Shown here: piece by piece, positions 9,946-64,000 of the stretch
Layout: each line of letters starts with the position of its first letter
Numbering within the stretch: position 1 is the first letter of the stretch
NCBI GenBank assembly: GCA_963170055.1
Contig: CAUJGJ010000304.1
Coordinates: forward strand, 504,001-568,000
DNA: 64,000 nucleotides
Origin: Halisarca cf. caerulea
Taxonomy: Eukaryota; Porifera; Demospongiae; Chondrillida; Halisarcidae
Direction of reading: 5' to 3'
Position numbers and translations under genes: made by a program
The notes under the pieces: generated by a model
Database searches by the model: none
Told to the model about the DNA's origin: nothing
Seen by the model: the letters and a program-made list of their open reading frames with translations, nothing else

Positions 9946-12900
9946 ACGTTAGAAACAATAGTCAAATGTTACAAAGTTTCAATAAGTTTTATCGCAAAGA
10001 CAATAATAGAAACATGACTATAAAATTAGGCAAAGCGCAAAATTGGCAAAGTTCCTAAGATATGACAAATAAAATAGTAATTTTAACTTTCTAAGAAAGT
10101 TAAGTTTAAAATGTTACAAAATTTCAATAAGTTTTATCGCAAAGACAATAATAGAAACATAACTTTAAAATTAGGCAAAACGCAAAATTGGCAAAGTTCC
10201 TAAGATATGCCGTACAAATGAAATAGTAATTTTAACTTTCTAAGAAAGTTAAGTTTAAATTGTACTTTCAAAGTTTAAAGAAGTTTTATCACAAAGACAA
10301 TTTTAGAAACATAACTTTAAAATTAAGCAAAGCGCAAAATTGGCAAAGTTCCTAAGATATGACAAATGAAATAGCAATTTTAACTTTCTAAGAAAGTTAA
10401 GTTTAAAATGTTACAAAGTTTCAATAAGTTTTATCGCAAAGGCAATTTTAGAAAATTATCTTTAAAATTCAGCAAAGCGCAAAATTGGCAAAGTTCCTAA
10501 GATATGACAAATGAAATAGTAATTTTAACTTTCTAAGAAAGTTAAGTTTAAAATGTTACAAAGTTTCAATAAGTTTTATCGCAAAGACAATTTTAGAAAC
10601 ATAACTTTAAAATTAAGCAAAGCGCAAAATTGGCAAAGTTCCTAAGATATGACAAATGAAATAGTAATTTGAACTTTCTAAGAAAGTTAAGTTTAAAATG
10701 TTACAAAGTTTCAATAAGTTTTATCGCAAAGACAATTTTAGAAACATAACTTTAAAATTCAGCAAAGCGCAAAATTGGCAAAGTTCCTAAGATATGACAA
10801 ATGAAATAGTAATTTTAACTTTCTAAGAAAGTTAAGTTTAAAATGTTACAAAGTTTCAATAAGTTTAATCGCAAAGACAATTTTAGAAACATATGTTTAA
10901 AATTAAGCAAAGCGCAAAATTGGCAAAGTTCCTAAGATATGACAAATGAAATAGCAATTTTAACTTTCTAAGAAAGTTAAGTTTAAAATGTTACAAAGTT
11001 TCAATAAGTTTTATCGCAAAGACAATTTTAGAAAATTATCTTTAAAATTCAGCAAAGCGCAAAATTGGCAAAGTTCCTAAGATATGACAAATGAAATAGT
11101 AATTTTAACTTTCTAAGAAAGTTAAGTTTAAAATGTTACAAAGTTTCAATAAGTTTTATCGCAAAGACAATTTTAGAAACATAACTTTAAAATTAAGCAA
11201 AGCGCAAAATTGGCAAAGTTCCTAAGATATGACAAATGAAATAGTAATTTGAACTTTCTAAGAAAGTTAAGTTTAAAATGTTACAAAGTTTCAATAAGTT
11301 TTATCGCAAAGACAATTTTAGAAACATAACTTTAAAATTCAGCAAAGCGCAAAATTGGCAAAGTTCCTAAGATATGACAAATGAAATAGCAATTTTAACT
11401 TTCTAAGAAAGTTAAGTTTAAAATGTTACAAAGTTTCAATAAGTTTTATCGCAAAGACAATTTTAGAAACATAACTTTAAAATTAAGCAAAGCGCAAAAT
11501 TGGCAAAGTTCCTAAGATATGACAAATGAAATAGTAATTTGAACTTTCTAAGAAAGTTAAGTTTAAAATGTTACAAAGTTTCAATAAGTTTTATCGCAAA
11601 GACAATTTTAGAAACATAACTTTAAAATTAAGCAAAGCGCAAAATTGGCAAAGTTCCTAAGATATGACAAATGAAATAGTAATTTGAACTTTCTAAGAAA
11701 GTTAAGTTTAAAATGTTACAAAGTTTCAATAAGTTTTATCGCAAAGACAATTTTAGAAACATAACTTTAAAATTAAGCAAAGCGCAAAATTGGCAAAGTT
11801 CCTAAGATATGACAAATGAAATAGCAATTTGAACTTTCTAAGAAAGTTAAGTTTAAAATGTTACAAAGTTTGAATAAGTTTTATCGCAAAGACAATTTTA
11901 GAAAGTTACCTTTAAAATTCAGCAAAGCGCAAAATTGGCAAAGTTCCTAAGATATGACAAATGAAATAGTAATTTGAACTTTCTAAGAAAGTTAAGTTTA
12001 AAATGTTACAAAGTTTCAATAAGTTTAATCGCAAAGACAATTTTAGAAACATATGTTTAAAATTAAGCAAAGCGCAAAATTGGCAAAGTTCCTAAGATAT
12101 GACAAATGAAATAGTAATTTTAACTTTCTAAGAAAGTTAAGTTTAAAATGTTACAAAGTTTCAATAAGTTTAATCGCAAAGACAATTTTAGAAACATATG
12201 TTTAAAATTAAGCAAAGCGCAAAATTGGCAAAGTTCCTAAGATATGACAAATGAAATAGCAATTTTAACTTTCTAAGAAAGTTAAGTTTAAAATGTTACA
12301 AAGTTTCAATAAGTTTTATCGCAAAGACAATTTTAGAAACATAACTTTAAAATTAAGCAAAGCGCAAAATTGGCAAAGTTCCTAAGATATGACAAATGAA
12401 ATAGTAATTTTAACTGTCTAAGAAAGTTAAGTTTAAAATGTTACAAAGTTTCAATAAGTTTAATCGCAAAGACAATTTTAGAAAATTAACTTTAAAATGA
12501 AGCAAAGCGCAAAATTGGCAAAGTTCCTAAGATATGACAAATGAAATAGTAATTTTAACTTTCTAAGAAAGTTAAAATTAAGTTAAAAATGTTACAAAGT
12601 TTCAATAAGTTTTATCGCAAAGACAATTTTAAAAACCTAACTTTAGATTTAGGCAAAGCACAAAATTGGGAAAGTTCCTAAGATATGACAAATAAATTGT
12701 AATTTTAACTTTCTAAGAAAGTTAAGTTTAAAGTGTTACAAAGTTTCAATAAGTTTTATCGCAAAGACGATTTTAGAAACATAACTTTAAAATTAGGAAA
12801 AGCGCAAAATTGGCAAAGTTCCTAAGATATAACAAATGAAATAGTAATTTTAACTTTCTAAGAAAGTTAAGTTTAAAATGTTACAAAGTTTCAATAAGTT

Positions 12901-15900
12901 TTATCGCAAAGACAATTTTAGAAACATAACTTTAAAATTCAGCAAAGCGCAAAATTGGCAAAGTTCCTAAGATATGACAAATGAAGTAGCAATTTTAACT
13001 TTCTAAGAAAGTTAAGTTTAAAATGTTACAAAGTTTCAATAAATTTTATCGCAAAGACAATTTTAGAAAATTATCTTTAAAATTCAGCAAAGCGCAAAAT
13101 TGGCAAAGTTCCTAAGATATGACAAATGAAATAGTAATTTTAACTTTCTAAGAAAGTTAAGTTTAAAATGTTACAAAGTTTCAATAAGTTTTATCGCAAA
13201 GACAATTTTAGAAACATAACTTTAAAATTAAGCAAAGCGCAAAATTGGCAAAGTTCCTAAGATATGACAAATGAAATAGTAATTTGAACTTTCTAAGAAA
13301 GTTAAGTTTAAAATGTTACAAAGTTTCAATAAGTTTAATCGCAAAGACAATTTTAGAAACATATGTTTAAAATTAAGCAAAGCGCAAAATTGGCAAAGTT
13401 CCTAAGATATGACAAATGAAATAGTAATTTTAACTTTCTAAGAAAGTTAAGTTTAAAATGTTACAAAGTTTCAATAAGTTTAATCGCAAAGACAATTTTA
13501 GAAACATATGTTTAAAATTAAGCAAAGCGCAAAATTGGCAAAGTTCCTAAGATATGACAAATGAAATAGCAATTTTAACTTTCTAAGAAAGTTAAGTTTA
13601 AAATGTTACAAAGTTTCAATAAGTTTTATCGCAAAGACAATTTTAGAAACATAACTTTAAAATTAAGCAAAGCGCAAAATTGGCAAAGTTCCTAAGATAT
13701 GACAAATGAAATAGTAATTTTAACTGTCTAAGAAAGTTAAGTTTAAAATGTTACAAAGTTTCAATAAGTTTAATCGCAAAGACAATTTTAGAAAATTAAC
13801 TTTAAAATGAAGCAAAGCGCAAAATTGGCAAAGTTCCTAAGATATGACAAATGAAATAGTAATTTTAACTTTCTAAGAAAGTTAAAATTAAGTTAAAAAT
13901 GTTACAAAGTTTCAATAAGTTTTATCGCAAAGACAATTTTAAAAACCTAACTTTAGATTTAGGCAAAGCACAAAATTGGGAAAGTTGTTAAGATATGACA
14001 AATAAATTGTAATTTTAACTTTCTAAGAAAGTTAAGTTTAAAGTGTTACAAAGTTTCAATAAGTTTTATCGCAAAGACGATTTTAGAAACATAACTTTAA
14101 AATTAGGAAAAGCGCAAAATTGGCAAAGTTCCTAAGATATAACAAATGAAATAGTAATTTTAACTTTCTAAGAAAGTTAAGTTTAAAATGTTACAAAGTT
14201 TCAATAAGTTTTATCGCAAAGACAATTTTAGAAACATAACTTTAAAATTCAGCAAAGCGCAAAATTGGCAAAGTTCCTAAGATATGACAAATGAAATAGT
14301 AATTTTAACTTTCTAAGAAAGTTAAGTTTAAAATGTTAAAAAGTTTCAATAAGTTTTATCGCAAAGACAATTTTAGAAACATAACTTTAAAATTAAGCAA
14401 AGCGCAAAATTGGCAAAATTCCTAAGATATGACAAATGAAATAGTAATTTGAACTTTCTAAGAAAGTTAAGTTTAAAATGTTACAAAGTTTCAATAAGTT
14501 TTATCGCAAAGACAATTTTAGAAACATAACTTTAAAACTAAGCAAAGCGCAAAATTGGCAAAGTTCCTAAGATATGACAAATGAAATAGTAATTTTAACT
14601 GTCCAAGAAAGTTAAGTTTAAAATGTTACAAAGTTTCAATAAGTTTAATCGCAAAGACAATTTTAGAAACATATGTTTAAAATTAAGCAAAGCGCAAAAT
14701 TGGCAAAGTTCCTAAGATATGACAAATGAAATAGTAATTTTAACTTTCTAAGAAAGTTAAGTTTAAAATGTTACAAAGTTTCAATAAGTTTAATCGCAAA
14801 GACAATTTTAGAAACATAACTTTAAAATTAAGCAAAGCGCAAAATTGGCAAAGTTCCTAAGATATGACAAATGAAATAGTAATTTTAACTGTCTAAGAAA
14901 GTTAAGTTTAAAATGTTACAAAGTTTCAATAAGTTTAATCGCAAAGACAATTTTAGAAAATTAACTTTAAAATGAAGCAAAGCGCAAAATTGGCAAAGTT
15001 CCTAAGATATGACAAATGAAATAGTAATTTTAACTTTCTAAGAAAGTTAAAATTAAGTTAAAAATGTTACAAAGTTTCAATAAGTTTTATCGCAAAGACA
15101 ATTTTAAAAACCTAACTTTAGATTTAGGCAAAGCACAAAATTGGGAAAGTTGTTAAGATATGACAAATAAATTGTAATTTTAACTTTCTAAGAAAGTTAA
15201 GTTTAAAGTGTTACAAAGTTTCAATAAGTTTTATCGCAAAGACGATTTTAGAAACATAACTTTAAAATTAGGAAAAGCGCAAAATTGGCAAAGTTCCTAA
15301 GATATAACAAATGAAATAGTAATTTTAACTTTCTAAGAAAGTTAAGTTTAAAATGTTACAAAGTTTCAATAAGTTTTATCGCAAAGACAATTTTAGAAAC
15401 ATAACTTTAAAATTCAGCAAAGCGCAAAATTGGCAAAGTTCCTAAGATATGACAAATGAAATAGTAATTTTAACTTTCTAAGAAAGTTAAGTTTAAAATG
15501 TTAAAAAGTTTCAATAAGTTTTATCGCAAAGACAATTTTAGAAACATAACTTTAAAATTAAGCAAAGCGCAAAATTGGCAAAATTCCTAAGATATGACAA
15601 ATGAAATAGTAATTTGAACTTTCTAAGAAAGTTAAGTTTAAAATGTTACAAAGTTTCAATAAGTTTAATCGCAAAGACAATTTTAGAAACATATGTTTAA
15701 AATTAAGCAAAGCGCAAAATTGGCAAAGTTCCTAAGATATGACAAATGAAATAGTAATTTTAACTTTCTAAGAAAGTTAAGTTTAAAATGTTACAAAGTT
15801 TCAATAAGTTTAATCGCAAAGACAATTTTAGAAACATATGTTTAAAATTAAGCAAAGCGCAAAATTGGCAAAGTTCCTAAGATATGACAAATGAAATAGC

Positions 15901-18900
15901 AATTTTAACTTTCTAAGAAAGTTAAGTTTAAAATGTTACAAAGTTTCAATAAGTTTTATCGCAAAGACAATTTTAGAAACATAACTTTAAAATTAAGCAA
16001 AGCGCAAAATTGGCAAAGTTCCTAAGATATGACAAATGAAATAGTAATTTTAACTGTCCAAGAAAGTTAAGTTTAAAATGTTACAAAGTTTCAATAAGTT
16101 TAATCGCAAAGACAATTTTAGAAACATATGTTTAAAATTAAGCAAAGCGCAAAATTGGCAAAGTTCCTAAGATATGACAAATGAAATAGTAATTTTAACT
16201 TTCTAAGAAAGTTAAGTTTAAAATGTTACAAAGTTTCAATAAGTTTAATCGCAAAGACAATTTTAGAAACATATGTTTAAAATTAAGCAAAGCGCAAAAT
16301 TGGCAAAGTTCCTAAGATATGACAAATGAAATAGTAATTTGAACTTTCTAAGAAAGTTAAGTTTAAAATGTTACAAAGTTTCAATAAGTTTTATCGCAAA
16401 GACAATTTTAGAAACATAACTTTAAAATTAAGCAAAGCGCAAAATTGGCAAAGTTCCTAAGATATGACAAATGAAATAGCAATTTGAACTTTCTAAGAAA
16501 GTTAAGTTTAAAATGTTACAAAGTTTGAATAAGTTTTATCGCAAAGACAATTTTAGAAAGTTACCTTTAAAATTCAGCAAAGCGCAAAATTGGCAAAGTT
16601 CCTAAGATATGACAAATGAAATAGTAATTTGAACTTTCTAAGAAAGTTAAGTTTAAAATGTTACAAAGTTTCAATAAGTTTTATCGCAAAGACAATTTTA
16701 GAAACATAATTTTAAAATTAAGCAAAGCGCAAAATTGGCAAAGTTCCTAAGATATGACAAATGAAATAGTAATTTGAACTTTCTAAGAAAGTTAAGTTTA
16801 AAATGTTACAAAGTTTCAATAAGTTTTATCGCAAAGACAATTTTAGAAAATTACCTTTAAAATTCAGCAAAGCGCAAAATTGGCAAAGTTCCTAAGATAT
16901 GACAAATGAAATAGTAATTTTAACTTTCTAAGAAAGTTAAGTTTAAAATGTTACAAAGTTTCAATAAGTTTTATCGCAAAGACAATTTTAGAAACATATG
17001 TTTAAAATTAAGCAAAGCGCAAAATTGGCAAAGTTCCTCAGATATGACAAATGAAATAGTAATTTGAACTTTCTAAGAAAGTTAAGTTTAAAATGTTACA
17101 AAGTTTGAATAAGTTTTATCGCAAAGACAATTTTAGAAAGTTACCTTTAAAATTCAGCAAAGCGCAAAATTGGCAAAGTTCCTAAGATATGACAAATGAA
17201 ATAGTAATTTGAACTTTCTAAGAAAGTTAAGTTTAAAATGTTACAAAGTTTCAATAAGTTTTATCGCAAAGACAATTTTAGAAACATAACTTTAAAATTA
17301 AGCAAAGCGCAAAATTGGCAAAGTTCCTAAGATATGACAAATGAAATAGCAATTTGAACTTTCTAAGAAAGTTAAGTTTAAAATGTTACAAAGTTTGAAT
17401 AAGTTTTATCGCAAAGACAATTTTAGAAAGTTACCTTTAAAATTCAGCAAAGCGCAAAATTGGCAAAGTTCCTAAGATATGACAAATGAAATAGTAATTT
17501 GAACTTTCTAAGAAAGTTAAGTTTAAAATGTTACAAAGTTTCAATAAGTTTTATCGCAAAGACAATTTTAGAAACATAATTTTAAAATTAAGCAAAGCGC
17601 AAAATTGGCAAAGTTCCTAAGATATGACAAATGAAATAGTAATTTGAACTTTCTAAGAAAGTTAAGTTTAAAATGTTACAAAGTTTCAATAAGTTTTATC
17701 GCAAAGACAATTTTAGAAAATTACCTTTAAAATTCAGCAAAGCGCAAAATTGGCAAAGTTCCTAAGATATGACAAATGAAATAGTAATTTTAACTTTCTA
17801 AGAAAGTTAAGTTTAAAATGTTACAAAGTTTCAATAAGTTTTATCGCAAAGACAATTTTAGAAACATATGTTTAAAATTAAGCAAAGCGCAAAATTGGCA
17901 AAGTTCCTCAGATATGACAAATGAAATAGTAATTTGAACTTTCTAAGAAAGTTAAGTTTAAAATGTTACAAAGTTTGAATAAGTTTTATCGCAAAGACAA
18001 TTTTAGAAAGTTACCTTTAAAATTCAGCAAAGCGCAAAATTGGCAAAGTTCCTAAGATATGACAAATGAAATAGTAATTTGAACTTTCTAAGAAAGTTAA
18101 GTTTAAAATGTTACAAAGTTTCAATAAGTTTTATCGCAAAGACAATTTTAGAAACATATGTTTAAAATTAAGCAAAGCGCAAAATTGGCAAAGTTCCTAA
18201 GATATGACAAATGAAATAGTAATTTGAACTTTCTAAGAAAGTTAAGTTTAAAATGTTACAAAGTTTCAATAAGTTTTATCGCAAAGACAATTTTAGAAAG
18301 TTACCTTTAAAATTCAGCAAAGCGCAAAATTGGCAAAGTTCCTAAGATATGACAAATGAAATAGTAATTTTAACTTTCTAAGAAAGTTAAGTTTAAAATG
18401 TTACAAAGTTTCAATAAGTTTTATCGCAAAGACAATTTTAGAAAATTACCTTTAAAATTAAGCAAAGCGCAAAATTGGCAAAGTTCCTAAGATATGACAA
18501 ATGAAATAGTAATTTGAACTTTCTAAGAAAGTTAAGTTTAAAATGTTACAAAGTTTCAATAAGTTTTATCGCAAAGACAATTTTAGAAACATAACGTTAC
18601 AATTAAGCAAAGCGCAAAATTGGCAAAGTTCCTAAGATATGACAAATGAAATAGTAATTTGAACTTTCTAAGAAAGTTAAGTTTAAAATGTTACAAAGTT
18701 TCAATAAGTTTTATCGCAAAGACAATTTTAGAAAATTACCTTTAAAATTCAGTAAAGCGCAAAATTGGCAAAGTTCCTAAGATATGACAAATGAAATAGT
18801 AATTTGAACTTTCTAAGAAAGTTAAGTTTAAAATGTTACAAAGTTTCAATAAGTTTTATCGCAAAGACAATTTTAGAAACATAACGTTACAATTAAGCAA

Positions 18901-21900
18901 AGCGCAAAATTGGCAAAGTTCCTAAGATATGACAAATGAAATAGTAATTTGAACTTTCTAAGAAAGTTAAGTTTAAAATGTTACAAAGTTTCAATAAGTT
19001 TTATCGCAAAGACAATTTTAGAAAATTACCTTTAAAATTCAGTAAAGCGCAAAATTGGCAAAGTTCCTAAGATATGACAAATGAAATAGTAATTTGAACT
19101 TTCTAAGAAAGTTAAGTTTAAAATGTTACAAAGTTTCAATAAGTTTTATCGCAAAGACAATTTTAGAAACATAACTTTAAAATTCAGTAAAGCGCAAAAT
19201 TGGCAAAGTTCCTAAGATATGACAAATGAAATAGTAATTTGAACTTTCTAAGAAAGTTAAGTTTAAAATGTTACAAAGTTTCAATAAGTTTTATCGCAAA
19301 GACAATTTTAGAAACATAACTTTAAAATTAAGCAAAGCGCAAAATTGGCAAAGTTCCTAAGATATGACAAATGAAATAGTAATTTTAACTTTCTAAGAAA
19401 GTTAAGTTTAAAATGTTACAAAGTTTCAATAAGTTTTATCGCAAAGACAATTTTAGAAACATAACGTTACAATTAAGCAAAGCGCAAAATTGGCAAAGTT
19501 CCTAAGATATGACAAATGAAATAGTAATTTGAACTTTCTAAGAAAGTTAAGTTTAAAATGTTACAAAGTTTCAATAAGTTTTATCGCAAAGACAATTTTA
19601 GAAAATTACCTTTAAAATTCAGTAAAGCGCAAAATTGGCAAAGTTCGTAAGATATGACAAATGAAATAGTAATTTGAACTTTCTAAGAAAGTTAAGTTTA
19701 AAATGTTACAAAGTTTCAATAAGTTTTATCGCAAAGACAATTTTAGAAACATAACTTTGAAATTCAGTAAAGCGCAAAATTGGCAAAGTTCCTAAGATAT
19801 GACAAATGAAATAGTAATTTGAACTTTTTAAGAAAGTTAAGTTTAAAATGTTACAAAGTTTCAATAAGTTTTATCGCAAAGACAATTTTAGAAACATAAC
19901 TTTAAAATTAAGCAAAGCGCAAAATTGGCAAAGTTCCTAAGATATGACAAATGAAATAGCAATTTTAACTTTCTAAGAAAGTTAAGTTTAAAATGTTACA
20001 AAGTTTCAATAAGTTTTATCGCAAAGACAATTTTAGAAAATTACCTTTAAAATTCAGCAAAGCGCAAAATTGGCAAAGTTCCTAAGATATGACAAATGAA
20101 ATAGTAATTTTAACTTTCTAAGAAAGTTAAGTTTAAAATGTTACAAAGTTTCAATAAGTTTTATCGCAAAGACAATTTTAGAAACATAACTTTAAAATTA
20201 AGCAAAGCGCAAAATTGGCAAAGTTCCTAAGATATGACAAATGAAATAGTAATTTGAACTTTCTAAGAAAGTTAAGTTTAAAATGTTACAAAGTTTCAAT
20301 AAGTTTTATCGCAAAGACAATTTTAGAAAATTACCTTTAAAATTCAGCAAAGCGCAAAATTGGCAAAGTTCCTAAGATATGACAAATGAAATAGTAATTT
20401 GAACTTTCTAAGAAAGTTAAGTTTAAAATGTTACAAAGTTTCAATAAGTTTTATCGCAAAGACAATTTTAGAAACATAACTTTAAAATTAAGCAAAGCGC
20501 AAAATTGGCAAAGTTCCTAAGATATGACAAATGAAATAGTAATTTGAACTTTCTAAGAAAGTTAAGTTTAAAATGTTACAAAGTTTCAATAAGTTTTATC
20601 GCAAAGACAATTTTAGAAAATTACCTTTAAAATTAAGCAAAGCGCAAAATTGGCAAAGTTCCTAAGATATGACAAATGAAATAGTAATTTTAACTTTCTA
20701 AGAAAGTTAAGTTTAAAATGTTACAAAGTTTCAATAAGTTTTATCGCAAAGACAATTTTAGAAAATTACCTTTAAAATTTAGCAAAGCGCAAAATTGGCA
20801 AAGTTCCTAAGATATGACAAATGAAATAGTAATTTTAACTTTCTAAGAAAGTTAAGTTTAAAATGTTACAAAGTTTCAATAAGTTTTATCGCAAAGACAA
20901 TTTTAGAAACATAACTTTAAAATTAAGCAAAGCGCAAAATTGGCAAAGTTCCTAAGATATGACAAATGAAATAGTAATTTGAACTTTATAAGAAAGTTAA
21001 GTTTAAAATGTTACAAAGTTTCAATAAGTTTTATCGCAAAGACAATTTTAGAAACATAACTTTAAAATTAATCAAAGCGCAAAATTGGCAAAGTTCCTAA
21101 GATATGACAAATGAAATAGCAATTTTAACTTTCTAAGAAAGTTAAGTTTAAAATGTTACAAAGTTTCAATAAGTTTTATCGCAAAGACAATTTTAGAAAA
21201 TTACCTTTAAAATTAAGCAAAGCGCAAAATTGGCAAAGTTCCTAAGATATGACAAATGAAATAGTAATTTGAACTTTCTAAGAAAGTTAAGTTTAAAATG
21301 TTACAAAGTTTCAATAAGTTTTATCGCAAAGACAATTTTAGAAACATAACTTTAAAATTAAGCAAAGCGCAAAATTGGCAAAGTTCCTAAGATATGACAA
21401 ATGAAATAGTAATTTGAACTTTCTAAGAAAGTTAAGTTTAAAATGTTACAAAGTTTCAATAAGTTTTATCGCAAAGACAATTTTAGAAACATAACTTTAA
21501 AATTAAGCAAAGCGCAAAATTGGCAAACTTCCTAAGATATGACAAATGAAATAGTAATTTCAACTTTCTAAGAAAGTTAAGTTTAAAATGTTACAAAGTT
21601 TCAATAAGTTTTATCGCAAAGACAATTTTAGAAAATTACCTTTAAAATTCAGCAAAGCGCAAAATTGGCAAAGTTCCTAAGATATGACAAATGAAATAGT
21701 AATTTTAACTTTCTAAGAAAGTTAAGTTTAAAATGTTACAAAGTTTCAATAAGTTTTATCGCAAAGACAATTTTAGAAACATAACTTTAAAATTCAGCAA
21801 AGCGCAAAATTGGCAAAGTTCCTAAGATATGACAAATGAAATAGTAATTTTAACTTTCTAAGAAAGTTAAGTTTAAAATGTTACAAAGTTTCAATAAGTT

Positions 21901-24900
21901 TTATCGCAAAGACAATTTTAGAAACATAACTTTAAAATTAAGCAAAGCGCAAAATTGGCAAAGTTCCTAAGATATGACAAATGAAATAGTAATTTGAACT
22001 TTCTAAGAAAGTTAAGTTTAAAATGTTACAAAGTTTCAATAAGTTTTATCGCAAAGACAATTTTAGAAACATAACTTTAAAATTAAGCAAAGCGCAAAAT
22101 TGGCAAAGTTCCTAAGATATGACAAATGAAATAGTAATTTGAACTTTCTAAGAAAGTTAAGTTTAAAATGTTACAAAGTTTCAATAAGTTTTATCGCAAA
22201 GACAATTTTAGAAACATAACGTTACAATTAAGCAAAGCGCAAAATTGGCAAAGTTCCTAAGATATGACAAATGAAATAGTAATTTGAACTTTCTAAGAAA
22301 GTTAAGTTTAAAATGTTACAAAGTTTCAATAAGTTTTATCGCAAAGACAATTTTAGAAAATTACCTTTAAAATTCAGTAAAGCGCAAAATTGGCAAAGTT
22401 CCTAAGATATGACAAATGAAATAGCAATTTTAACTTTCTAAGAAAGTTAAGTTTAAAATGTTACAAAGTTTCAATAAGTTTTATCGCAAAGACAATTTTA
22501 GAAACATAACGTTACAATTAAGCAAAGCGCAAAATTGGCAAAGTTCCTAAGATATGACAAATGAAATAGTAATTTGAACTTTCTAAGAAAGTTAAGTTTA
22601 AAATGTTACAAAGTTTCAATAAGTTTTATCGCAAAGACAATTTTAGAAAATTACCTTTAAAATTCAGTAAAGCGCAAAATTGGCAAAGTTCCTAAGATAT
22701 GACAAATGAAATAGTAATTTGAACTTTCTAAGAAAGTTAAGTTTAAAATGTTACAAAGTTTCAATAAGTTTTATCGCAAAGACAATTTTAGAAACATAAC
22801 TTTAAAATTCAGTAAAGCGCAAAATTGGCAAAGTTCCTAAGATATGACAAATGAAATAGTAATTTGAACTTTCTAAGAAAGTTAAGTTTAAAATGTTACA
22901 AAGTTTCAATAAGTTTTATCGCAAAGACAATTTTAGAAACATAACTTTAAAATTAAGCAAAGCGCAAAATTGGCAAAGTTCCTAAGATATGACAAATGAA
23001 ATAGTAATTTTAACTTTCTAAGAAAGTTAAGTTTAAAATGTTACAAAGTTTCAATAAGTTTTATCGCAAAGACAATTTTAGAAACATAACTTTAAAATTA
23101 AGCAAAGCGCAAAATTGGCAAACTTCCTAAGATATGACAAATGAAATAGTAATTTTAACTTTCTAAGAAAGTTAAGTTTAAAATGTTACAAAGTTTCAAT
23201 AAGTTTTATCGCAAAGACAATTTTAGAAACATAACTTTAAAATTAAGCAAAGCGCAAAATTGGCAAAGTTCCTAAGATATGACAAATGAAATAGTAATTT
23301 GAACTTTCTAAGAAAGTTAAGTTTAAAATGTTACAAAGTTTCAATAAGTTTTATCGCAAAGACAATTTTAGAAACATAACTTTAAAATTAAGCAAAGCGC
23401 AAAATTGGCAAAGTTCCTAAGATATGACAAATGAAATAGTAATTTTAACTTTCTAAGAAAGTTAAGTTTAAAATGTTACAAAGTTTCAATAAGTTTTATC
23501 GCAAAGACAATTTTAGAAAATTACCTTTAAAATTTAGCAAAGCGCAAAATTGGCAAAGTTCCTAAGATATGACAAATGAAATAGTAATTTTAACTTTCTA
23601 AGAAAGTTAAGTTTAAAATGTTACAAAGTTTCAATAAGTTTTATCGCAAAGACAATTTTAGAAACATAACTTTAAAATTAAGCAAAGCGCAAAATTGGCA
23701 AAGTTCCTAAGATATGACAAATGAAATAGTAATTTGAACTTTCTAAGAAAGTTAAGTTTAAAATGTTACAAAGTTTCAATAAGTTTTATCGCAAAGACAA
23801 TTTTAGAAACATAACTTTAAAATTAAGCAAAGCGCAAAATTGGCAAAGTTCCTAAGATATGACAAATGAAATAGCAATTTTAACTTTCTAAGAAAGTTAA
23901 GTTTAAAATGTTACAAAGTTTCAATAAGTTTTATCGCAAAGACAATTTTAGAAACATAACTTTAAAATTAAGCAAAGCGCAAAATTGGCAAAGTTCCTAA
24001 GATATGACAAATGAAATAGTAATTTGAACTTTCTAAGAAAGTTAAGTTTAAAATCTTACAAAGTTTCAATAAGTTTTATCGCAAAGACAATTTTAGAAAC
24101 ATAACTTTAAAATTAAGCAAAGCGCAAAATTGGCAAAGTTCCTAAGATATGACAAATGAAATAGTAATTTGAACTTTCTAAGAAGGTTAAGTTTAAAATG
24201 TTACAAAGTTTCAATAAGTTTTATCGCAAAGACAATTTTAGAAACATAACTTTAAAATTAAGCAAAGCGCAAAATTGGCAAAGTTCCTAAGATATGACAA
24301 ATGAAATAGTAATTTGAACTTTCTAAGAAGGTTAAGTTTAAAATGTTACAAAGTTTCAATAAGTTTTATCGCAAAGACAATTTTAGAAACATAACTTTAA
24401 AATTAAGCAAAGCGCAAAATTGGCAAAGTTCCTAAGATATGACAAATGAAATAGTAATTTGAACTTTCTAAGAAAGTTAAGTTTAAAATGTTACAAAGTT
24501 TCAATAAGTTTTATCGCAAAGACAATTTTAGAAACATAACTTTAAAATTAAGCAAAGCGCAAAATTGGCAAAGTTCCTAAGATATGACAAATGAAATAGT
24601 AATTTGAACTTTCTAAGAAGGTTAAGTTTAAAATGTTACAAAGTTTCAATAAGTTTTATCGCAAAGACAATTTTAGAAAATTACCTTTAAAATTCAGCAA
24701 AGCGCAAAATTGGCAAAGTTCCTAAGATATGACAAATGAAATAGTAATTTGAACTTTCTAAGAAAGTTAAGTTTAAAATGTTATAAAGTTTCAATAAGTT
24801 TTATTGAAAAAACAATTTTAGAAACATAACGTTAAAATCAAGCAAAATTCAAAATTGGCAAAGTTCCTAAGATATGACAAATGAAATAGTAATTTTAACT

Positions 24901-25000
24901 TTCTAAGAAAGTTAAGTTTGAAATGTTACAAAGTTTCAACAAGTTTTATCTTAAAGATCATTTTAGAAACATAACTTTAAAATAAGGCAAAGTGCAAAAT
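9946..25000 (+). repeat. Satellite A, left array, 145-bp monomer, + orientation
   Basis: About 103 tandem monomers of 145 bp, for example TGGCAAAGTT at 10921, 11066 and 11211. Landmarks in order are GCGCAAAATTGGCAAAG, CCTAAGATATGACAAATG, a dyad of TTAACTTTCT and AGAAAGTTAA around a central A, TGTTACAAAGTTTCAATAAG, TTTTATCGCAAAGACAA and TTAGAAACATAACTTTAAAA. Every reading frame is closed, so the array is non-coding. Variants recur with longer periods: 290, 870 and 3625 bp, and about 1310/1165 bp. The first units (to ~10260) and the last before the gap (24780-25000) are more diverged than the interior, as is usual at array edges. Confidence 0.98.
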
Positions 25001-25200
25001 NNNNNNNNNNNNNNNNNNNNNNNNNNNNNNNNNNNNNNNNNNNNNNNNNNNNNNNNNNNNNNNNNNNNNNNNNNNNNNNNNNNNNNNNNNNNNNNNNNNN
25101 NNNNNNNNNNNNNNNNNNNNNNNNNNNNNNNNNNNNNNNNNNNNNNNNNNNNNNNNNNNNNNNNNNNNNNNNNNNNNNNNNNNNNNNNNNNNNNNNNNNN
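25001..25200. other. Assembly gap of 200 N within satellite A
   Basis: The last called bases (GCAAAAT) and the first after the gap (TTGCAAATTTCC) are consecutive in the satellite monomer. The true missing length should therefore be zero or a whole number of ~145-bp monomers, not 200. The 200 N look like a placeholder, and array length is unknown. Confidence 0.9.
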
Positions 25201-25470: not shown

Positions 25471-25980
25471 GAACATATTACCATTTCTACTGGTGTTGCG
25501 TAGCCAAACATTTTTGTCTAAATTTTCGAAGTTCTGCAGAGAAATTGGCCTACAAAGGGTTTTAACTACTTCATCTTATAGCTAGTATACCCCCCAAAGT
25601 TAGAATGTGCAAAAACTAGTCCGGTATCACAGCCTGGGTTAAATTACCCCGAATGTTGTCCAGAGAGAAATTTATGTCCCCATATTAGTAACTATTATAT
25701 TTGTGCAATAAATCTTTTTTATCCTGTGCTGTCTTTCATGCGAGTGGCTTCTATCCTCTGGTAGCGATATCGCCAAAGTATATGCCATTTTCTTCTGACA
25801 TCACTGAGAATGTTTACTGGCTATAGTTTATCCTAAGCACTAACTATAAGAGGAGGGCTCTTGCCTCGTTCGGCATTTTAGTTTTATTTTAGTCTATAAT
25901 AATATTATAGTACTTATTATTTTATCTTTATGTATTTTTATGTAGTGTTATTATATTTTAAATTGTTGAAAAACTGTGAA
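25471..25980. other. Non-satellite shoulder, first part inverted relative to 42075-42225
   Basis: From about 25445 to 25590 the sequence is the diverged reverse complement of 42075-42225. Shared landmarks include CTGGTGTTG, TTTTTGTCTAAA, GGGTTTTAACT and TTCATCTTATAGCTAGT. Beyond 25590 no similarity to the other shoulder is seen, and no gene is recognised. Confidence 0.7.
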
Positions 25981-25986
25981 GTATAT

Positions 25987-26290
<304 letters not shown>

Positions 26291-27919: not shown

Positions 27920-28153
27920 TCCTATATGTCTTTATTATTAATTAGTGTGCTCTTATCTGCTCAGTAGTATAGTATGTTCGTAGTCTCTCTCTCACGTATC
28001 TCTTAATGTATCACTCTCCATGCATTAATGTGTAGTTTTTGCCTTGCCAGGGTCTGTGTACAGCCTTCACCTGTATTTTCCCCTGAGTCCTAGGCTCTTT
28101 TTTGTATCACACCATTATTACATGATCTATAATTCAATGATGTGCCCCCCCCC
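27093..28153 (+). mobile_element. 5'-truncated RLE retrotransposon, family B copy 1, with poly-C tail
   Basis: A retrotransposon 3' portion that interrupts the left shoulder of the inverted repeat. It contains the degraded C-terminal ORF (27093-27916), a ~230-bp 3' UTR sharing TGCCTTGCC and CTGTGT/CTGTAC motifs with copy 2, and a terminal run of nine C. The uninterrupted right shoulder shows the pre-insertion sequence, with about 16 bp lost or altered at the junction. Confidence 0.8.
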
Positions 28154-28189
28154 TCCATTACAAAATATTAAATAATATAGAAGTGAAAA

Positions 28190-28366
28190 CATCATGATCA
28201 CCTATGGCAGCGCCTCCTATCAGGAATGCCTGCCGGCCAGATCTCCTTTGTACTCCGTGCTAGCTAGGATTGCATACCCTCTCCATGGTGAGATGGGGCT
28301 ACTCCTTATGCAAGAAGTGCCCTTTGTGCAACTCCTCGCTTGCAATGCACATCACATATTAAGTGA
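28190..28366 (+). pseudogene. RLE family B fragment, copy 3, frameshifted
   Basis: CACCTATGGCAGCGCCTCC and the following bases align with 27209-27370 of copy 1. Shifted frames give HLWQRLLSGMPAGQISFVLRAS, then RWGYSLCKKCPLCN and a possible AHHILS. At least two frameshifts and one stop break it. It ends abruptly at about 28366 against an unrelated reverse transcriptase, so it is a rearranged fragment. Confidence 0.75.
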
Positions 28367-28985
28367 AACACAAACAAAGCACCTGGCAATGATAATATAT
28401 GCCCTTTTATATTGAAGAACTGCTCCCTAGCCTTACTTCAACATTTAGCTCATCTATTTCACTCAAGTATTAAAAACTGTCATATTCTAACAGAATGGAA
28501 AGTACACAAGCTTTGTCCTATACACATAAGTGGTAGCAGATCTGATGTCACCAACTACAGACCTATCTCATTGCTAAATATAGTTCCTAAAGTCCTAGAG
28601 TGCATCATATACAAAAAGATCATTGATTTCATACAGCCACATATCAGTAAACATCAATATGGCTTTCTCCCAAACAGATCATGTCTATAGCAAATCCTGG
28701 CATCATATCATCACATATACTCTCAAGCTGATCATGACCTCAACTCAGATGCGATTTATCTTGATTTTAGCAAAGCATTCGATTGTATCCCCCACCCCGA
28801 ACTGTTGCACAAACTCTGGCATTTTGGAATAACAGGCCCACTCTGGTCCTGCATGGTTCAAATCTTACCTTGAAGGACGTACCCACTTTGTCCAAGTAGA
28901 TGACACTCAATCCCCAATCCTACCTGTAAGATCTGGTGTCCCTCAGGGTAATATCCTCGGTCCTCTACTCTTTCTCATCTATATA

Positions 28986-30273: not shown

Positions 30274-31207
30274 TATATAAATGACCTACCAAACTATATC
30301 ACTTCATCCAAAATATACATGTATGCAGATGACACGAAATTAACCGAATCCAACGACAGACAATTAAACAGATCTTGTCTGCAGGACGTCCTGCCTGAGG
30401 TAGGCAAATGGCGCAGCCAATGGCTAATCCTTCTCAATGAGTCTAAGTGTTCATGTGTTCACTTCTCACTAAGGCATTCAAACAAAGCTAGCTCCTTGTA
30501 CTTTATGAACAATCAACCTATCAAAGTACTCTGTAAGTAAATTGATCTTGGAATTCTCATCTCATCAGATCTCACATGGTCTCACCACATACAACAAATT
30601 TATAGAAGAGCATATCATACCCTTGGATATATTAGGCGATCAATTCATTCATACACATCTACAGTTATAATAAGGAAAAACCTATACCTGATGTTAGTCA
30701 AATCGAAAATTACATACTGTTCTCAACTCTGGAGACCACTACTATTATAAAGGACATCAAAGCTATTGAATCCATACAAAAGCGAGCCACTAAACTCATT
30801 CTCTCAGATTTCACATCAGACTACAGACAGAGATTAACAAAGCTACATTTTCTGCCAATCATGTACTACTTCGAGCTACAGGACATATTATTCACTGTCA
30901 AATCCCTAAAAAACCCATCACCAAATTTTAACATTCAGGAGTATATATCATTTGCTTCCTCAAGTACAAGGCTAACCACAAACAGCAAAATGATTCAACA
31001 ATTCTCACGAACATCAACCTTCAGGCACTATTACTTCAATCGGATTTAAAGCTGTGGAACTCTATACCAACTATTGATTTGAATGAACCCTTTCCCAGTA
31101 TCAAAGAGACAATCACCACATTCTTGTGGCAGCACTTCATTGTGAACTTTAACCCTAATAATACATGCATATACCACTATATATGTCCATGCCCACATTG
31201 TCATTAA

Positions 31208-32560: not shown

Positions 32561-32572
32561 ATGATTTGACGT

Positions 32573-38423: not shown

Positions 38424-38424
38424 T

Positions 38425-40942: not shown

Positions 40943-41582
40943 TTTTGCACAATTTGAATAAGCTCCTGCATGCATGAGGTGCATGAGTATACCATGATCA
41001 CGCACATTATAAACAGTATAGTTTTATGACGCATAGACGAGCTAATCCTTGACAACCTATAAAAATCTTGTGTCTACAATGTATGGTCTTAAAATTACAA
41101 ATTTATTGCAACATGCATGAAGGAGCTTATTCACAATAACGCAAAAGGTTCTCTGGAACAGTGTTTATAGTTCTAGGTTACTACCCTACGTGGTGAATTC
41201 ACATTCTCATGAGTATGCATTTGCACAAGGCCAGATTTCAAGTGTATGTAACATCATCTGTTTCAACCTTACCTGCTTGAACACTTTGGAGCTGAAATTT
41301 TATATCAGATTAGGGGATATACATTGTGATTTGCAATGAATGTTTCTGAGTCTTCCGAATCGAATAGGCTGAGAAAACAAGCGAGGACAAATATTAAATA
41401 CAAGTGGCAAAAAATATTAATTAATTTGGTCACAGGAGATGAATCACTCCTATTCCTGAAAGGTAAAACAGAAGCACCTAAACTTTTTACTTTAGCCAGT
41501 ACATATAGAAGGTTACTATTGACAGGAGATGTAAGTTCATAGCCTTTATCGGTACGAAGTGTCAGGTGTCCAAATTTGTATC
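40943..41582. mobile_element. Foldback element, copy 2 (loop and right arm only)
   Basis: It aligns in direct orientation with 37861-38423 of copy 1 (loop and right arm, e.g. CTACGTGGTGAATTCACATT) and continues to the full right tip CCAAATTTGTA, which is the inverse of copy 1's left tip. The left arm is absent. It sits within degenerate satellite A. Confidence 0.8.
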
Positions 41583-45100: not shown

Positions 45101-48100
45101 TGCGATAAAACTTATTGAAACTTTGTAACATTTTAAACTTAACTTTCTTAGAAAGTTAAAATTACTATTTCATTTGTCATATCTTAGGAACTTTGCCAAT
45201 TTTGCGCTTTGCTTAATTTTAAAGTTATGTTTCTAAAATTGTCTTTGCGATAAAACTTATTGAAACTTTGTAACATTTTAAACTTAACTTTCTTAGAAAG
45301 TTAAAATTACTATTTCATTTGTCATATCTTAGGAACTTTTCCAATTTTGCGCTTTGCTTAATTTTAAAGTTATGTTTCTAAAATTGTCTTTGCGATAAAA
45401 CTTATTGAAACTTTGTAACATTTTAAACTTAACTTTCTTAGAAAGTTCAAATTACTATTTCATTTGTCATATCTTAGGAACTTTGGCAATTTTGCGCTTT
45501 GCTTAATTTTAAAGATATGTTTCTAAAATTGTCTTTGCGATAAAACTTATTGAAACTTTGTAACATTTTAAACTTAACTTTCTTAGAAAGTTCAAATTAC
45601 TATTTCATTTGTCATATCTTAGCAACTTTGCCAATTTTGCGCTTTGCTTAATTTTAAAGATATGTTTCTAAAATTGTCTTTGCGATAAAACTTATTGAAA
45701 CTTTGTAACATTTTAAACTTAACTTTCTTAGAAAGTTCAAATTACTATTTTATTTGTCATATCTTAGGAACTTTGCCAATTTTGCGCTTTGCTTAATTTT
45801 AAAGGTATGTTTCTAAAATTGTCTTTGCGATAAAACTTATTGAAACTTTGTAACATTTTAAACTTAACTTTCTTAGAAAGTTCAAATTACTATTTCATTT
45901 GTCATATCTTAGGAACTTTGGCAATTTTGCGCTTTGCTTAATTTTAAAGATATGTTTCTAAAATTGTCTTTGCGATAAAACTTATTGAAACTTTGTAACA
46001 TTTTAAACTTAACTTTCTTAGAAAGTTCAAATTACTATTTGATTTGTCATATCTTAGGAACTTTGCCAATTTTGCGCTTTGCTTAATTTTAAAGTTATGT
46101 TTCTAAAATTGTCTTTGCGATAAAACTTATTGAAACTTTGTAACATTTTAAACTTAACTTTCTTAGAAAGTTCAAATTACTATTTCATTTGTCATATCTT
46201 GGGAACTTTGCCAATTTTGCGCTTTGCTTAATTTTAAAGGTATGTTTCTAAAATTGTCTTTGCGATAAAACTTATTGAAACTTTGTAACATTTTAAACTA
46301 AACTTTCTTAGAAAGTTAAAATTACTATTTCATTTGTCATATCTTAGGAACTTTGCCAATTTTGCGCTTTGCTTAATTTTAAAGATAAAAATTATTGAAA
46401 CTTTTTAACATTTTAAACTTAACTTTCTTAGAAAGTTAAAATTACTATTTCATTTGTCATATCTTAGGAACTTTGCCAATTTTGCGCTTTGCTTAATTTT
46501 AAAGGTATGTTTCTAAAATTGTCTTTGCGATAAAACTTATTGAAACTTTGTAACATTTTAAACTTAACTTTCTTAGAAAGTTAAAATTACTATTTCATTT
46601 GTCATATCTTAGCAACTTTGCCAATTTTGCACTTTGCTTAATTTAAGTTATGTTTCTAAAATTGTCTTTGCGATAAAACTTATTGAAACTTTGTAACATT
46701 TTAAACTTAACTTTCTTAGAAAGTTCAAATTACTATTTGATTTGTCATATCTTAGGAACTTTGCCAATTTTGCGCTTTGCTTAATTTTAAAGATATGTTT
46801 CTAAAATTGTCTTTGCGATAAAACTTATTGAAACTTTGTAACATTTTAAACTTAACTTTCTTAGAAAGTTCAAATTACTATTTGATTTGTCATATCTTAG
46901 GAACTTTGCCAATTTTGCGCTTTGCTTAATTTTAAAGGTATGTTTCTAAAATTGTCTTTGCGATAAAACTTATTGAAACTTTGTAACATTTTAAACTTAA
47001 CTTTCTTAGAAAGTTAAAATTACTATTTCATTTGTCATATCTTAGCAACTTTGCCAATTTTGCACTTTGCTTAATTTAAGTTATGTTTCTAAAATTGTCT
47101 TTGCGATAAAACTTATTGAAACTTTGTAACATTTTAAACTTAACTTTCTTAGAAAGTTCAAATTACTATTTCATTTGTCATATCTTAGGAACTTTGGCAA
47201 TTTTGCGCTTTGCTTAATTTTAAAGATATGTTTCTAAAATTGTCTTTGCGATAAAACTTATTGAAACTTTGTAACATTTTAAACTTAACTTTCTTAGAAA
47301 GTTCAAATTACTATTTGATTTGTCATATCTTAGGAACTTTGCCAATTTTGCGCTTTGCTTAATTTTAAAGTTATGTTTCTAAAATTGTCTTTGCGATAAA
47401 ACTTATTGAAACTTTTTAACATTTTAAACTTAACTTTCTTAGAAAGTTAAAATTACTATTTCATTTGTCATATCTTAGGAACTTTGCCAATTTTGCGCTT
47501 TGCTTAATTTTAAAGGTATGTTTCTAAAATTGTCTTTGCGATAAAACTTATTGAAACTTTGTAACATTTTAAACTTAACTTTCTTAGAAAGTTAAAATTA
47601 CTATTTCATTTGTCATATCTTAGGAACTTTGCCAATTTTGCGCTTTGCTTAATTTTAAAGATATGTTTCTAAAATTGTCTTTGCGATAAAACTTATTGAA
47701 ACTTTGTAACATTTTAAACTTAACTTTCTTAGAAAGTTAAAATTACTATTTCATTTGTCATATCTTAGGAACTTTGCCAATTTTGCGCTTTGCTTAATTT
47801 TAAAGTTATGTTTCTAAAATTGTCTTTGCGATAAAACTTATTGAAACTTTGTAACATTTTAAACTTAACTTTCTTAGAAAGTTAAAATTACTATTTCATT
47901 TGTCATATCTTAGGAACTTTTCCAATTTTGCGCTTTGCTTAATTTTAAAGTTATGTTTCTAAAATTGTCTTTGCGATAAAACTTATTGAAACTTTGTAAC
48001 ATTTTAAACTTAACTTTCTTAGAAAGTTAAAATTACTATTTCATTTGTCATATCTTAGGAACTTTGGCAATTTTGCGCTTTGCTTAATTTTAAAGATATG

Positions 48101-51100
48101 TTTCTAAAATTGTCTTTGCGATAAAACTTATTGAAACTTTGTAACATTTTAAACTTAACTTTCTTAGAAAGTTCAAATTACTATTTGATTTGTCATATCT
48201 TAGGAACTTTGCCAATTTTGCGCTTTGCTTAATTTTAAAGTTATGTTTCTAAAATTGTCTTTGCGATAAAACTTATTGAAACTTTGTAACATTTTAAACT
48301 TAACTTTCTTAGAAAGTTCAAATTACTATTTCATTTGTCATATCTTGGGAACTTTGCCAATTTTGCGCTTTGCTTAATTTTAAAGGTATGTTTCTAAAAT
48401 TGTCTTTGCGATAAAACTTATTGAAACTTTGTAACATTTTAAACTAAACTTTCTTAGAAAGTTAAAATTACTATTTCATTTGTCATATCTTAGGAACTTT
48501 GCCAATTTTGCGCTTTGCTTAATTTTAAAGATAAAAATTATTGAAACTTTTTAACATTTTAAACTTAACTTTCTTAGAAAGTTAAAATTACTATTTCATT
48601 TGTCATATCTTAGGAACTTTTCCAATTTTGCGCTTTGCTTAATTTTAAAGTTATGTTTCTAAAATTGTCTTTGCGATAAAACTTATTGAAACTTTGTAAC
48701 ATTTTAAACTTAACTTTCTTAGAAAGTTCAAATTACTATTTCATTTGTCATATCTTAGGAACTTTGGCAATTTTGCGCTTTGCTTAATTTTAAAGATATG
48801 TTTCTAAAATTGTCTTTGCGATAAAACTTATTGAAACTTTGTAACATTTTAAACTTAACTTTCTTAGAAAGTTCAAATTACTATTTGATTTGTCATATCT
48901 TAGGAACTTTGCCAATTTTGCGCTTTGCTTAATTTTAAAGTTATGTTTCTAAAATTGTCTTTGCGATAAAACTTATTGAAACTTTGTAACATTTTAAACT
49001 TAACTTTCTTAGAAAGTTCAAATTACTATTTCATTTGTCATATCTTGGGAACTTTGCCAATTTTGCGCTTTGCTTAATTTTAAAGGTATGTTTCTAAAAT
49101 TGTCTTTGCGATAAAACTTATTGAAACTTTGTAACATTTTAAACTAAACTTTCTTAGAAAGTTAAAATTACTATTTCATTTGTCATATCTTAGGAACTTT
49201 GCCAATTTTGCGCTTTGCTTAATTTTAAAGATAAAAATTATTGAAACTTTTTAACATTTTATACTTAACTTTCTTAGAAAGTTAAAATTACTATTTCATT
49301 TGTCATATCTTAGGAACTTTGCCAATTTTGCGCTTTGCTTAATTTTAAAGGTATGTTTCTAAAATTGTCTTTGCGATAAAACTTATTGAAACTTTGTAAC
49401 ATTTTAAACTTAACTTTCTTAGAAAGTTAAAATTACTATTTCATTTGTCATATCTTAGCAACTTTGCCAATTTTGCACTTTGCTTAATTTAAGTTATGTT
49501 TCTAAAATTGTCTTTGCGATAAAACTTATTGAAACTTTGTAACATTTTAAACTTAACTTTCTTAGAAAGTTAAAATTACTATTTCATTTGTCATATCTTA
49601 GGAACTTTGCCAATTTTGCGCTTTGCTTAATTTTAAAGATATGTTTCTAAAATTGTCTTTGCGATAAAACTTATTGAAACTTTGTAACATTTTAAACTTA
49701 ACTTTCTTAGAAAGTTCAAATTACTATTTGATTTGTCATATCTTAGGAACTTTGCCAATTTTGCGCTTTGCTTAATTTTAAAGTTATGTTTCTAAAATTG
49801 TCTTTGCGATAAAACTTATTGAAACTTTGTAACATTTTAAACTTAACTTTCTTAGAAAGTTAAAATTACTATTTCATTTGTCATATCTTAGGAACTTTTC
49901 CAATTTTGCGCTTTGCTTAATTTTAAAGTTATGTTTCTAAAATTGTCTTTGCGATAAAACTTATTGAAATTTTGTAACATTTTAAACTTAACTTTCTTAG
50001 AAAGTTAAAATTACTATTTCATTTGTCATATCTTAGGAACTTTGCCAATTTTGCGCTTTGCTTAATTTTAAAGTTATGTTTCTAAAATTGTCTTTGCGAT
50101 AAAACTTATTGAAACTTTGTAACATTTTAAACTTAACTTTCTTAGAAAGTTAAAATTACTATTTCATTTGTCATTTGTCATATCTTAGAAACTTTGCCAA
50201 TTTTGCACTTTGCTTAATTTTAAAGTTATGTTTCTAAAATTGTCTTTGCGATAAAACTTATTGAAACTTTGTAACATTTTAAACTTAACTTTCTTAGAAA
50301 GTTAAAATTACTATTTCATTTGTCATATCTTAGGAACTTTGCCAATTTTGCGCTTTGCTTAATTTTAAAGTTATGTTTCTAAAATTGTCTTTGCGATAAA
50401 ACTTATTGAAACTTTGTAACATTTTAAACTTAACTTTCTTAGAAAGTTCAAATTACTATTTCATTTGTCATATCTTAGGAACTTTGCCAATTTTGCGCTT
50501 TGCTTAATTTTAAAGATATGTTTCTAAAATTGTCTTTGCGATAAAACTTATTGAAACTTTGTAACATTTTAAACTTAACTTTCTTAGAAAGTTAAAATTA
50601 CTATTTCATTTGTCATATCTTAGGAACTTTTCCAATTTTGCGCTTTGCTTAATTTTAAAGTTATGTTTCTAAAATTGTCTTTGCGATAAAACTTATTGAA
50701 ACTTTGTAACATTTTAAACTTAACTTTCTTAGAAAGTTAAAATTACTATTTCATTTGTCATATCTTAGGAACTTTGCCAATTTTGCGCTTTGCTTAATTT
50801 TAAAGTTATGTTTCTAAAATTGTCTTTGCGATAAAACTTATTGAAACTTTGTAACATTTTAAACTTAACTTTCTTAGAAAGTTCAAATTACTATTTCATT
50901 TGTCATATCTTAGGAACTTTGCCAATTTTGCGCTTTGCTTAATTTTAAAGATATGTTTCTAAAATTGTCTTTGCGATAAAACTTATTGAAACTTTGTAAC
51001 ATTTTAAACTTAACTTTCTTAGAAAGTTCAAATTACTATTTGATTTGTCATATCTTAGGAACTTTGCCAATTTTGCGCTTTGCTTAATTTTAAAGTTATG

Positions 51101-63100: not shown

Positions 63101-64000
63101 ATTTTGCGCTTTGCTTAATTTTAAAGTTATGTTTCTAAAATTGTCTTTGCGATAAAACTTATTGAAACTTTGTAACATTTTAAACTTAACTTTCTTAGAA
63201 AGTTAAAATTACTATTTCATTTGTCATATCTTAGCAACTTTGCCAATTTTGCACTTTGCTTAATTTTAAAGTTATGTTTCTAAAATTGTCTTTGCGATAA
63301 AACTTATTGAAACTTTGTAACATTTTAAACTTAACTTTCTTAGAAAGTTAAAATTACTATTTCATTTGTCATATCTTAGGAACTTTGTCAATTTTGCGCT
63401 TTGCTTAATTTTAAAGATATGTTTCTAAAATTGTCTTTGCGATAAAACTTATTGAAACTTTGTAACATTTTAAACTTAACTTTCTTAGAAAGTTAAAATT
63501 ACTATTTCATTTGTCATATCTTAGGAACTTTGCCAATTTTGCACTTTGCTTAATTTTAAAGTTATGTTTCTAAAATTGTCTTTGCGATAAAACTTATTGA
63601 AACTTTGTAACATTTTAAACTTAACTTTCTTAGAAAGTTCAAATTACTATTTCATTTGTCATATCTTAGGAACTTTGCCAATTTTGCGCTTTGCTTAATT
63701 TTAAAGGTATGTTTCTAAAATTGTCTTTGCGATAAAACTTATTGAAACTTTGTAACATTTTAAACTTAACTTTCTTAGAAAGTTCAAATTACTATTTCAT
63801 TTGTCATATCTTAGGAACTTTGCCAATTTTGCGCTTTGCTTAATTTTAAAGATATGTTTCTAAAATTGTCTTTGCGATAAAACTTATTGAAACTTTGTAA
63901 CATTTTAAACTTAACTTTCTTAGAAAGTTCAAATTACTATTTCATTTTCATATCTTAGGAACTTTGCCAATTTTGCGCTTTGCTTAATTTTAAAGATATG
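42176..64000 (-). repeat. Satellite A, right array, 145-bp monomer, minus orientation
   Basis: About 150 tandem monomers whose reverse complement is the consensus of the left array. The first ~800 bp are diverged; the interior is highly uniform. Three main variants (AAAGTTATG, AAAGATATG, AAAGGTATG) are mixed. Rarer markers show longer periods: a doubled TTTGTCA at 50167 and 52639, and TTTATCATA at 51914 and 54386, both 2472 bp apart. A 25-bp deletion monomer lies at 44671, 46384, 48530 and 49230. No reading frame is open. The array continues past the window end. Confidence 0.98.

Follow-up and report, generated by a model that had tools for sequence, protein, structure and literature searches.

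In a 64,000-bp stretch of genomic DNA from the sponge Halisarca cf. caerulea (contig CAUJGJ010000304.1, positions 504,001 to 568,000; hereafter the window), a transposon-filled core separates two arrays of one AT-rich satellite with a 145-bp monomer, satellite A, which run in opposite directions. The window lies on a scaffold of 573,200 bases (C281), and the same layout, forward satellite on the left and reverse satellite on the right, was found at three loci (C281, C172 and C175), each with its own prevailing subfamily. Judged from its sequence organization, the locus is probably the centromere or pericentromere of one Halisarca caerulea chromosome.

Opposed satellite arrays and an inverted core in the window

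The first-pass annotation had claimed that the same 145-bp satellite is forward on the left and reversed on the right, and that the non-satellite shoulders are mutually inverted; both statements were borne out. Comparison of 20-mers between the left bins (10-24 kb) and the right bins (42-64 kb) gave none in common in direct orientation, and 4,469 to 19,262 per 2-kb bin pair in inverted orientation. TRF reported a period of 145 at 9,964-25,000 and, in several overlapping rows, at 42,436-64,000, with 95-97% matches; some rows of the right array had 120-bp or 435-bp periods, the 435-bp fit spanning 42,436-49,230. Segmentation resolved 104 monomers in the left array and 187 in the right one; the latter count takes in the final 5,200 bases of the scaffold, which lie outside the window and are still reverse satellite A. 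Positions of all features are listed in Table 1.

Table 1. Features of the window and copies of the core repeat on the high-identity scaffolds
Feature	Scaffold	Position	Strand	Remark
Satellite relative, ~142 bp, old, scattered	C281	568-957, 1601-2366, 5061-5264, 5606-5943	+	Outside left array
Satellite relative, 146 bp	C281	6917-7386, 9038-9921	+	Outside left array
Left satellite A array	C281	9964-25480	+	145-bp monomers; both limits approximate
200-N gap	C281	25001-25200		Satellite phase unbroken across gap
Left shoulder	C281	25483-25604	+	Holds dispersed repeat; inverted partner ~42,070-42,172
Extra left-arm sequence	C281	25605-26611		Missing in C172; another dispersed repeat and CA/GA microsatellites
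Left 481-bp core repeat	C281	26612-27092	+	Inverted repeat copy
Core centre	C281	27093-40000		Transposon fragments
Reverse transcriptase ORF	C281	32570-35626	+	1018 aa, RVT_1
Right 481-bp core repeat	C281	40001-40482	-	95% to left copy
Satellite relics	C281	40582-42438	-	~67-83% to A, among other repeats; all reverse
Right shoulder	C281	42070-42172	-	Pairs with 25,483-25,604, inverted; limits set by eye
Right satellite A array	C281	42174-64000	-	Runs 5.2 kb further, to scaffold end
Core repeat copies	C281		both	100 and 96%
Core repeat copies	C172		both	96%, and 97% over 90 bp
Core repeat copies	C150		both	93%, and 88% over ~72 bp
Core repeat copies	C175		both	93%
Core repeat copy	C260			89%
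Core repeat copy	C79			91%
Core repeat copy	C69			90%, partial
Core repeat pieces	C1			91% over 122 bp, 81% alongside

Mean identity to the consensus per bin was 0.97-0.99 on the left and 0.99 over most bins on the right, with 0.94-0.97 in the right-array bins at 43-49 kb, where 120-bp copies are present, and 0.90 in the bin at 42.6 kb. Among the near-complete monomers (102 left, 184 right), identity was 0.963 left-left, 0.970 right-right and 0.964 left-right, and the two arms have a single consensus in common. Only 2 distinct monomers occurred in both arms (47 distinct left, 53 right). One consensus with just 2 monomers in common indicates a single family whose arms were amplified separately. 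Identity was nearly flat over monomer lags 1-15 (0.961-0.971 left, 0.969-0.975 right), with no clear higher-order unit. The longest perfect palindrome arm within the monomer was 10, a length equalled in 1 of 1000 mononucleotide shuffles, which preserve base composition only.

At its two edges the core carries an imperfect inverted repeat, composed of a 481-bp piece at 95% (458 identities, 23 mismatches, 1 gap) and a shoulder at 85% (153 identities, 25 mismatches, 2 gaps). Part of the left shoulder (25,488-25,586) is a dispersed repeat, whose query gave 322 first-look candidates, 40 of them scored. The spacing between shoulder and 481-bp piece is ~1.0 kb on the left and ~1.6 kb on the right, satellite relics included. 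On C172 the two are directly joined, and the extra sequence on C281 is therefore probably a later addition. Within the extra left-arm sequence lie long CA, GA and GACA microsatellites (25987-26289). The relics at 40.8-41.9 kb have bin-mean identities to the satellite consensus of 0.77-0.79.

The nearest database relative of the 1018-aa ORF is 99% identical over 78% of its length, and from its layout we read this reverse transcriptase as one of the non-LTR type. Stretches of 835, 733 and 483 bp in the C172 core were collinear with the C281 core at ~95%, the matched parts of C281 including 28,152-28,985 and 30,274-31,003; a further stretch, of 1,144 bp, was 92% identical to sequence in the right half of the C281 core, with the order inverted. 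The collinear stretches indicate that the two cores have a common ancestry and carry different nested insertions. The core also contains a ~950-bp foldback- or MITE-like element (37469-38423), 79% identical to its own reverse complement, of which one part (37,863-38,416) has a direct second copy at 40,943-41,515 (86%).

Mirror polarity at three loci

The genome searched comprised 194.5 Mb in 454 sequences. An exact 152-bp consensus gave 37 matches genome-wide, on C281 (3 forward on the left, 14 reverse on the right) and C404 (20, all forward) only. For C172, all 85 genome-wide forward matches of a 36-mer fell inside 3,360,590-3,379,362; its reverse matches, 797 genome-wide, started at 3,390,699 among the 15 matches listed, and an edge query found reverse matches out to 3,558,501. 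For C175, whose satellite is a 123-bp variant ~75% like A, all 24 forward matches of a 47-mer fell inside 462,766-496,593. The position of its right array was predicted by symmetry, and reverse satellite was found there: of 323 reverse matches genome-wide, those listed were all on C175, from 519,850. Of the reverse arrays on C172 and C175, the analysis covered only part. Reversed control patterns for the three loci gave 0 matches each.

Dispersal of the satellite on all arms, which the first-pass annotation had named as a finding that would refute its reading, was addressed in part. The exact 152-bp sequence was confined to the two scaffolds above, and no relative of the satellite was found in the 100 kb adjoining the window, but a 35-bp satellite pattern had 436 forward and 846 reverse matches, located on C138 and C172 among the matches listed (the first ~100).

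All 10 arms in which satellite was seen beside the core repeat had the same relative polarity (both arms of C281, C172 and C175, the left arms of C150 and C79, and the right arms of C69 and C1, with C29 left out as a duplicate). These arms are related by descent, so that the 10 are not independent trials. Between the inverted arms of C172 there are 6 mismatches over the 1,725 bp that precede an N stretch of the core, and between the C175 shoulders none over 314 bp, whereas the C281 arms are 95% alike. We read the near-identical arms of C172 and C175 as a sign that, at some loci, one arm was recently converted by the other or newly duplicated.

Occurrence of the core repeat in the genome

The query for the core repeat was bases 1-319 of the 481-bp piece, which leaves out its dispersed 3' part. 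All 38 first-look candidates were scored, giving 41 matches, and copies of high identity (mostly 88-100%) were present on eight scaffolds (Table 1). The listed matches on C29 and C69 lie at one constant offset (1,722,308), two outer satellite matches excepted; this is probably a haplotypic duplication remaining in the assembly, and C29 was counted together with C69. At high identity the core repeat is found on about eight scaffolds, while the genome note puts the chromosome number at an estimated 9-17 (PMC12391866).

Diverged copies, mostly 68-81% identical, occurred on C412, C40, C1, C369, C227, C201, C246, C226 and C89, with short rows of 84% on C89 and of 89% over 56 bp on C226. The four longest scaffolds examined (C369, C290, C412 and C226) contained no long high-identity copy; diverged copies were present on three of them, in addition to the 56-bp match on C226. 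Diverged copies form clusters of nine on C40 (0.79-1.60 Mb) and six on C412 (7.93-8.53 Mb), which are possibly old centromere regions or copies of a targeted element.

Loci without the full mirror

Samples were also taken on the far side of several cores and arrays. No satellite was found in the 4 readable samples right of the C150 core (two 350-bp and two 150-bp pieces; one more was N), in 4 samples left of the C1 core, or in 5 readable samples left of the C345 array (one more was N). Right of the C79 core, all 5 samples consisted of another satellite, with mutual overlaps of 72-146 bp at 92-100%; scored in either direction, it came close to the shuffle maximum or slightly exceeded it, and the references disagreed on its direction. 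The C345 array was all reverse among the matches listed, and the genome search with the 319-bp query found no core repeat on C345. On C260, the 321 bp outward of the core copy contained no satellite. In these samples no matching second arm was found on C150, C79, C1 or C345, and the mirror is seen at three loci, not at all. The far-side satellite of C79 (C79:1,556,001-1,580,150) is AT-rich, with a unit of ~134 bp by eye, and hardly related to A. Left of the satellite on C1 (C1:865,001-871,150), two of the four samples hold another tandem repeat and are 90% alike.

The interpretation given in the first-pass annotation is supported in part. The inverted architecture is right and is seen again on C172 and C175, where the core is related and the satellites belong to other subfamilies, but some loci are unmirrored. 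Satellites often occupy non-centromeric heterochromatin, and the arrays could be heterochromatic blocks of an interstitial, subtelomeric or knob-like kind, the mirror having no role in segregation. One-sided loci fit such blocks, as do the C281 and C138 arrays, which reach a scaffold end, and the C404 array, which comes within ~2.4 kb of one. However, the C172 and C345 arrays lie deep within multi-megabase scaffolds (3.36-3.56 of 6.22 Mb and 3.02-3.18 of 5.80 Mb), and subfamilies that differ by locus, together with one high-identity core set per scaffold, are a better fit to centromeres. We therefore consider heterochromatic blocks without a centromere unlikely, while giving them some weight.

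Centromere reading and proposed origin

The centromere reading rests on features common in animal centromeres, namely homogeneous arrays of nucleosome-length monomers, subfamilies that vary from locus to locus and a position inside large scaffolds. Core exchange between chromosomes, a transposon-rich inner flank and older layers outward, as in many animals, point the same way. On this basis, CENP-A kinetochore chromatin would occupy the young arrays and the core, and the older outer satellites and transposons would form pericentric heterochromatin. A CENP-C domain search of the genome gave no match; such a search crosses introns poorly, and the control genomes also fell below the cut-off.

As to origin, an inverted-repeat seed may have been copied among chromosomes through exchange between centromeres. 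The two arms would owe their opposite polarity to stalled forks or fold-back repair at this seed, and unequal exchange would then enlarge each arm, leaving older repeats outside. More broadly, we tentatively propose, at somewhat less than even confidence, that the centromeres of this early-branching animal have in common a homologous inverted-repeat core, passed from chromosome to chromosome, with satellites pointing strictly opposite ways from it. The conserved feature would then be the mirror polarity and not the sequence of the satellite, and a plan like that of fission yeast would have evolved independently in animals.

The mirror could instead be a recombination relic, left by a single neutral inversion or fold-back duplication that was later copied with the core. 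The few differences between the C172 arms (6 in 1,725 bp) and the identity of the C175 shoulders over 314 bp do resemble fresh palindromes. The polarity persists, however, with quite different satellites (~75-92% to A), and old relics have it too. This points to upkeep or renewal of the polarity, and we regard a relic of recombination as improbable. A locus with such an origin could still be a centromere.

Foldback elements have inverted termini made of tandem repeats, and the inverted core edges would suit a giant transposon of this type, with the tandem arrays as its terminal inverted repeats. We find this very improbable in view of the unequal C172 arms (~21 kb forward, single reverse matches as far as ~168 kb out), the nesting of the left array in older satellite layers and the small number of high-identity copies.

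Gap in the left array and soundness of the assembly

The published H. caerulea assembly is scaffold-level and was built with YaHS; the genome note gives 195.70 Mb in 488 scaffolds (PMC12391866), a little more than the sequence searched here. The scaffold piece left of the 200-N gap ends exactly at base 529,000, and the piece to its right measures 44,000 bases exactly. We infer from these round lengths that a Hi-C scaffolder cut a contig at a bin edge and then rejoined it. Satellite monomers are at phase 104 of 145 on either side of the gap, so that the two pieces were very probably one contig originally. Forward satellite, both shoulders and the reverse array all lie on the 44-kb right piece, which makes the switch of polarity independent of the join. 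A right piece placed in the wrong orientation, which the 200 N in the left array and the scaffold-level YaHS assembly (PMC12391866) might suggest, is thus scarcely credible, given also the agreement in phase (chance 1 in 145), C281 core arms that at 95% are too dissimilar for a fold-back duplicate, and the recurrence of the switch on C172 and C175.

Comparison with known systems

Schizosaccharomyces pombe centromeres are bounded by tRNA genes. Unlike there, ARAGORN in its bacterial setting found no tRNA genes in the window and the adjoining 100 kb. Candida tropicalis has regional centromeres with inverted repeats, which its authors liken to those of S. pombe (PMC4741521). As described there, a core lies between inverted repeats and sequences are common to several chromosomes, which holds for Halisarca too; unlike C. 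tropicalis, Halisarca has tandem satellites of tens of kilobases or more as its outer repeats and, in place of a non-repetitive core, a transposon-filled one that includes the 1018-aa reverse transcriptase ORF (PMC4741521). The likeness to an inverted-repeat centromere drawn in the first-pass annotation thus applies to the flanks but not to the core, which consists of transposons inserted into an inverted repeat rather than unique sequence of the C. tropicalis type. We regard the Halisarca locus as analogous to the S. pombe and C. tropicalis type and at most as a candidate member of it. Among the systems consulted, C. tropicalis is the nearest with a proven inverted-repeat centromere.

Drosophila centromere islands are transposon-rich and embedded in satellite arrays, and at C281 a retroelement-bearing island likewise lies between satellite arrays. 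To our knowledge, mirror polarity of the flanking satellites is not a defining feature of the Drosophila islands, unlike at the three Halisarca loci. Drosophila centromeres have been described as islands of retroelements (PMC6516634).

The nearest animal parallel is the macro-dyad satellites of Tribolium, in which long satellite subarrays face in opposite orientation at putative (peri)centromeres; the inversion sites are conserved, and different satellites have the same layout (PMC13081366). By its authors' account, such symmetries had until then been documented exclusively within Tribolium (PMC13081366). Halisarca resembles it in the kilobase-scale subarrays of one satellite in opposite orientation (C281, C172 and C175) and in a conserved sequence at the inversion site, here a core element common to eight scaffolds. 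As reported, the inversion point in Tribolium is a degenerate subunit and the inversion sites number in the thousands (PMC13081366), whereas Halisarca has a transposon-filled core of ~9-24 kb that has an inverted repeat of its own, with one set on each scaffold that carries it.

Among the literature matches listed, none dealt with sponge centromere DNA. If the centromere reading is true, these loci are candidate centromeres for a sponge and offer a natural test of whether mirror polarity, rather than sequence, marks the centromere. Three satellites ~75-92% alike, with one layout and related cores, would be the basis of such a test, which would join fungi, beetles and sponges under one question.

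Outer layers and flanking sequence

The older layers outside the left array (0.57-9.9 kb) have the same forward polarity as the array. The 146-bp relative is 86-88% identical to the C345 array and 88-95% to C404:113-115 kb, and a search of the adjoining 100 kb, of which 2,500 bases are N, gave no satellite relatives at E 1e-4. On C404 (191,400 bp), exact satellite matches span 117,274 to 188,998, all forward, and the 146-bp family adjoins them on the outside; read backwards, C404 would fit the missing right arm of C281. A 1-kb piece of the protocadherin gene in the C281 flank occurs once in the genome, which argues against C404 as a collinear allele of the left side. A haplotype duplicate was likewise ruled out for the protocadherin part of the flank by its single copy.

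An Rfam scan gave no match. From the protocadherin gene (431-435 kb) to position 504 kb, C281 has 10 ORFs of at least 200 aa, a count that would miss spliced genes; the 5 of them that were scanned gave DDE_1, Peptidase_C48, DDE_3, Phage_integrase and RVT_1 domains. Within the window, ~5.4 kb outside the left array, lies a 513-aa ORF for a pogo/Tigger-type transposase (2970-4511, forward) with DDE_1 and HTH_Tnp_Tc5 domains, a pair that occurs in CENP-B relatives too.
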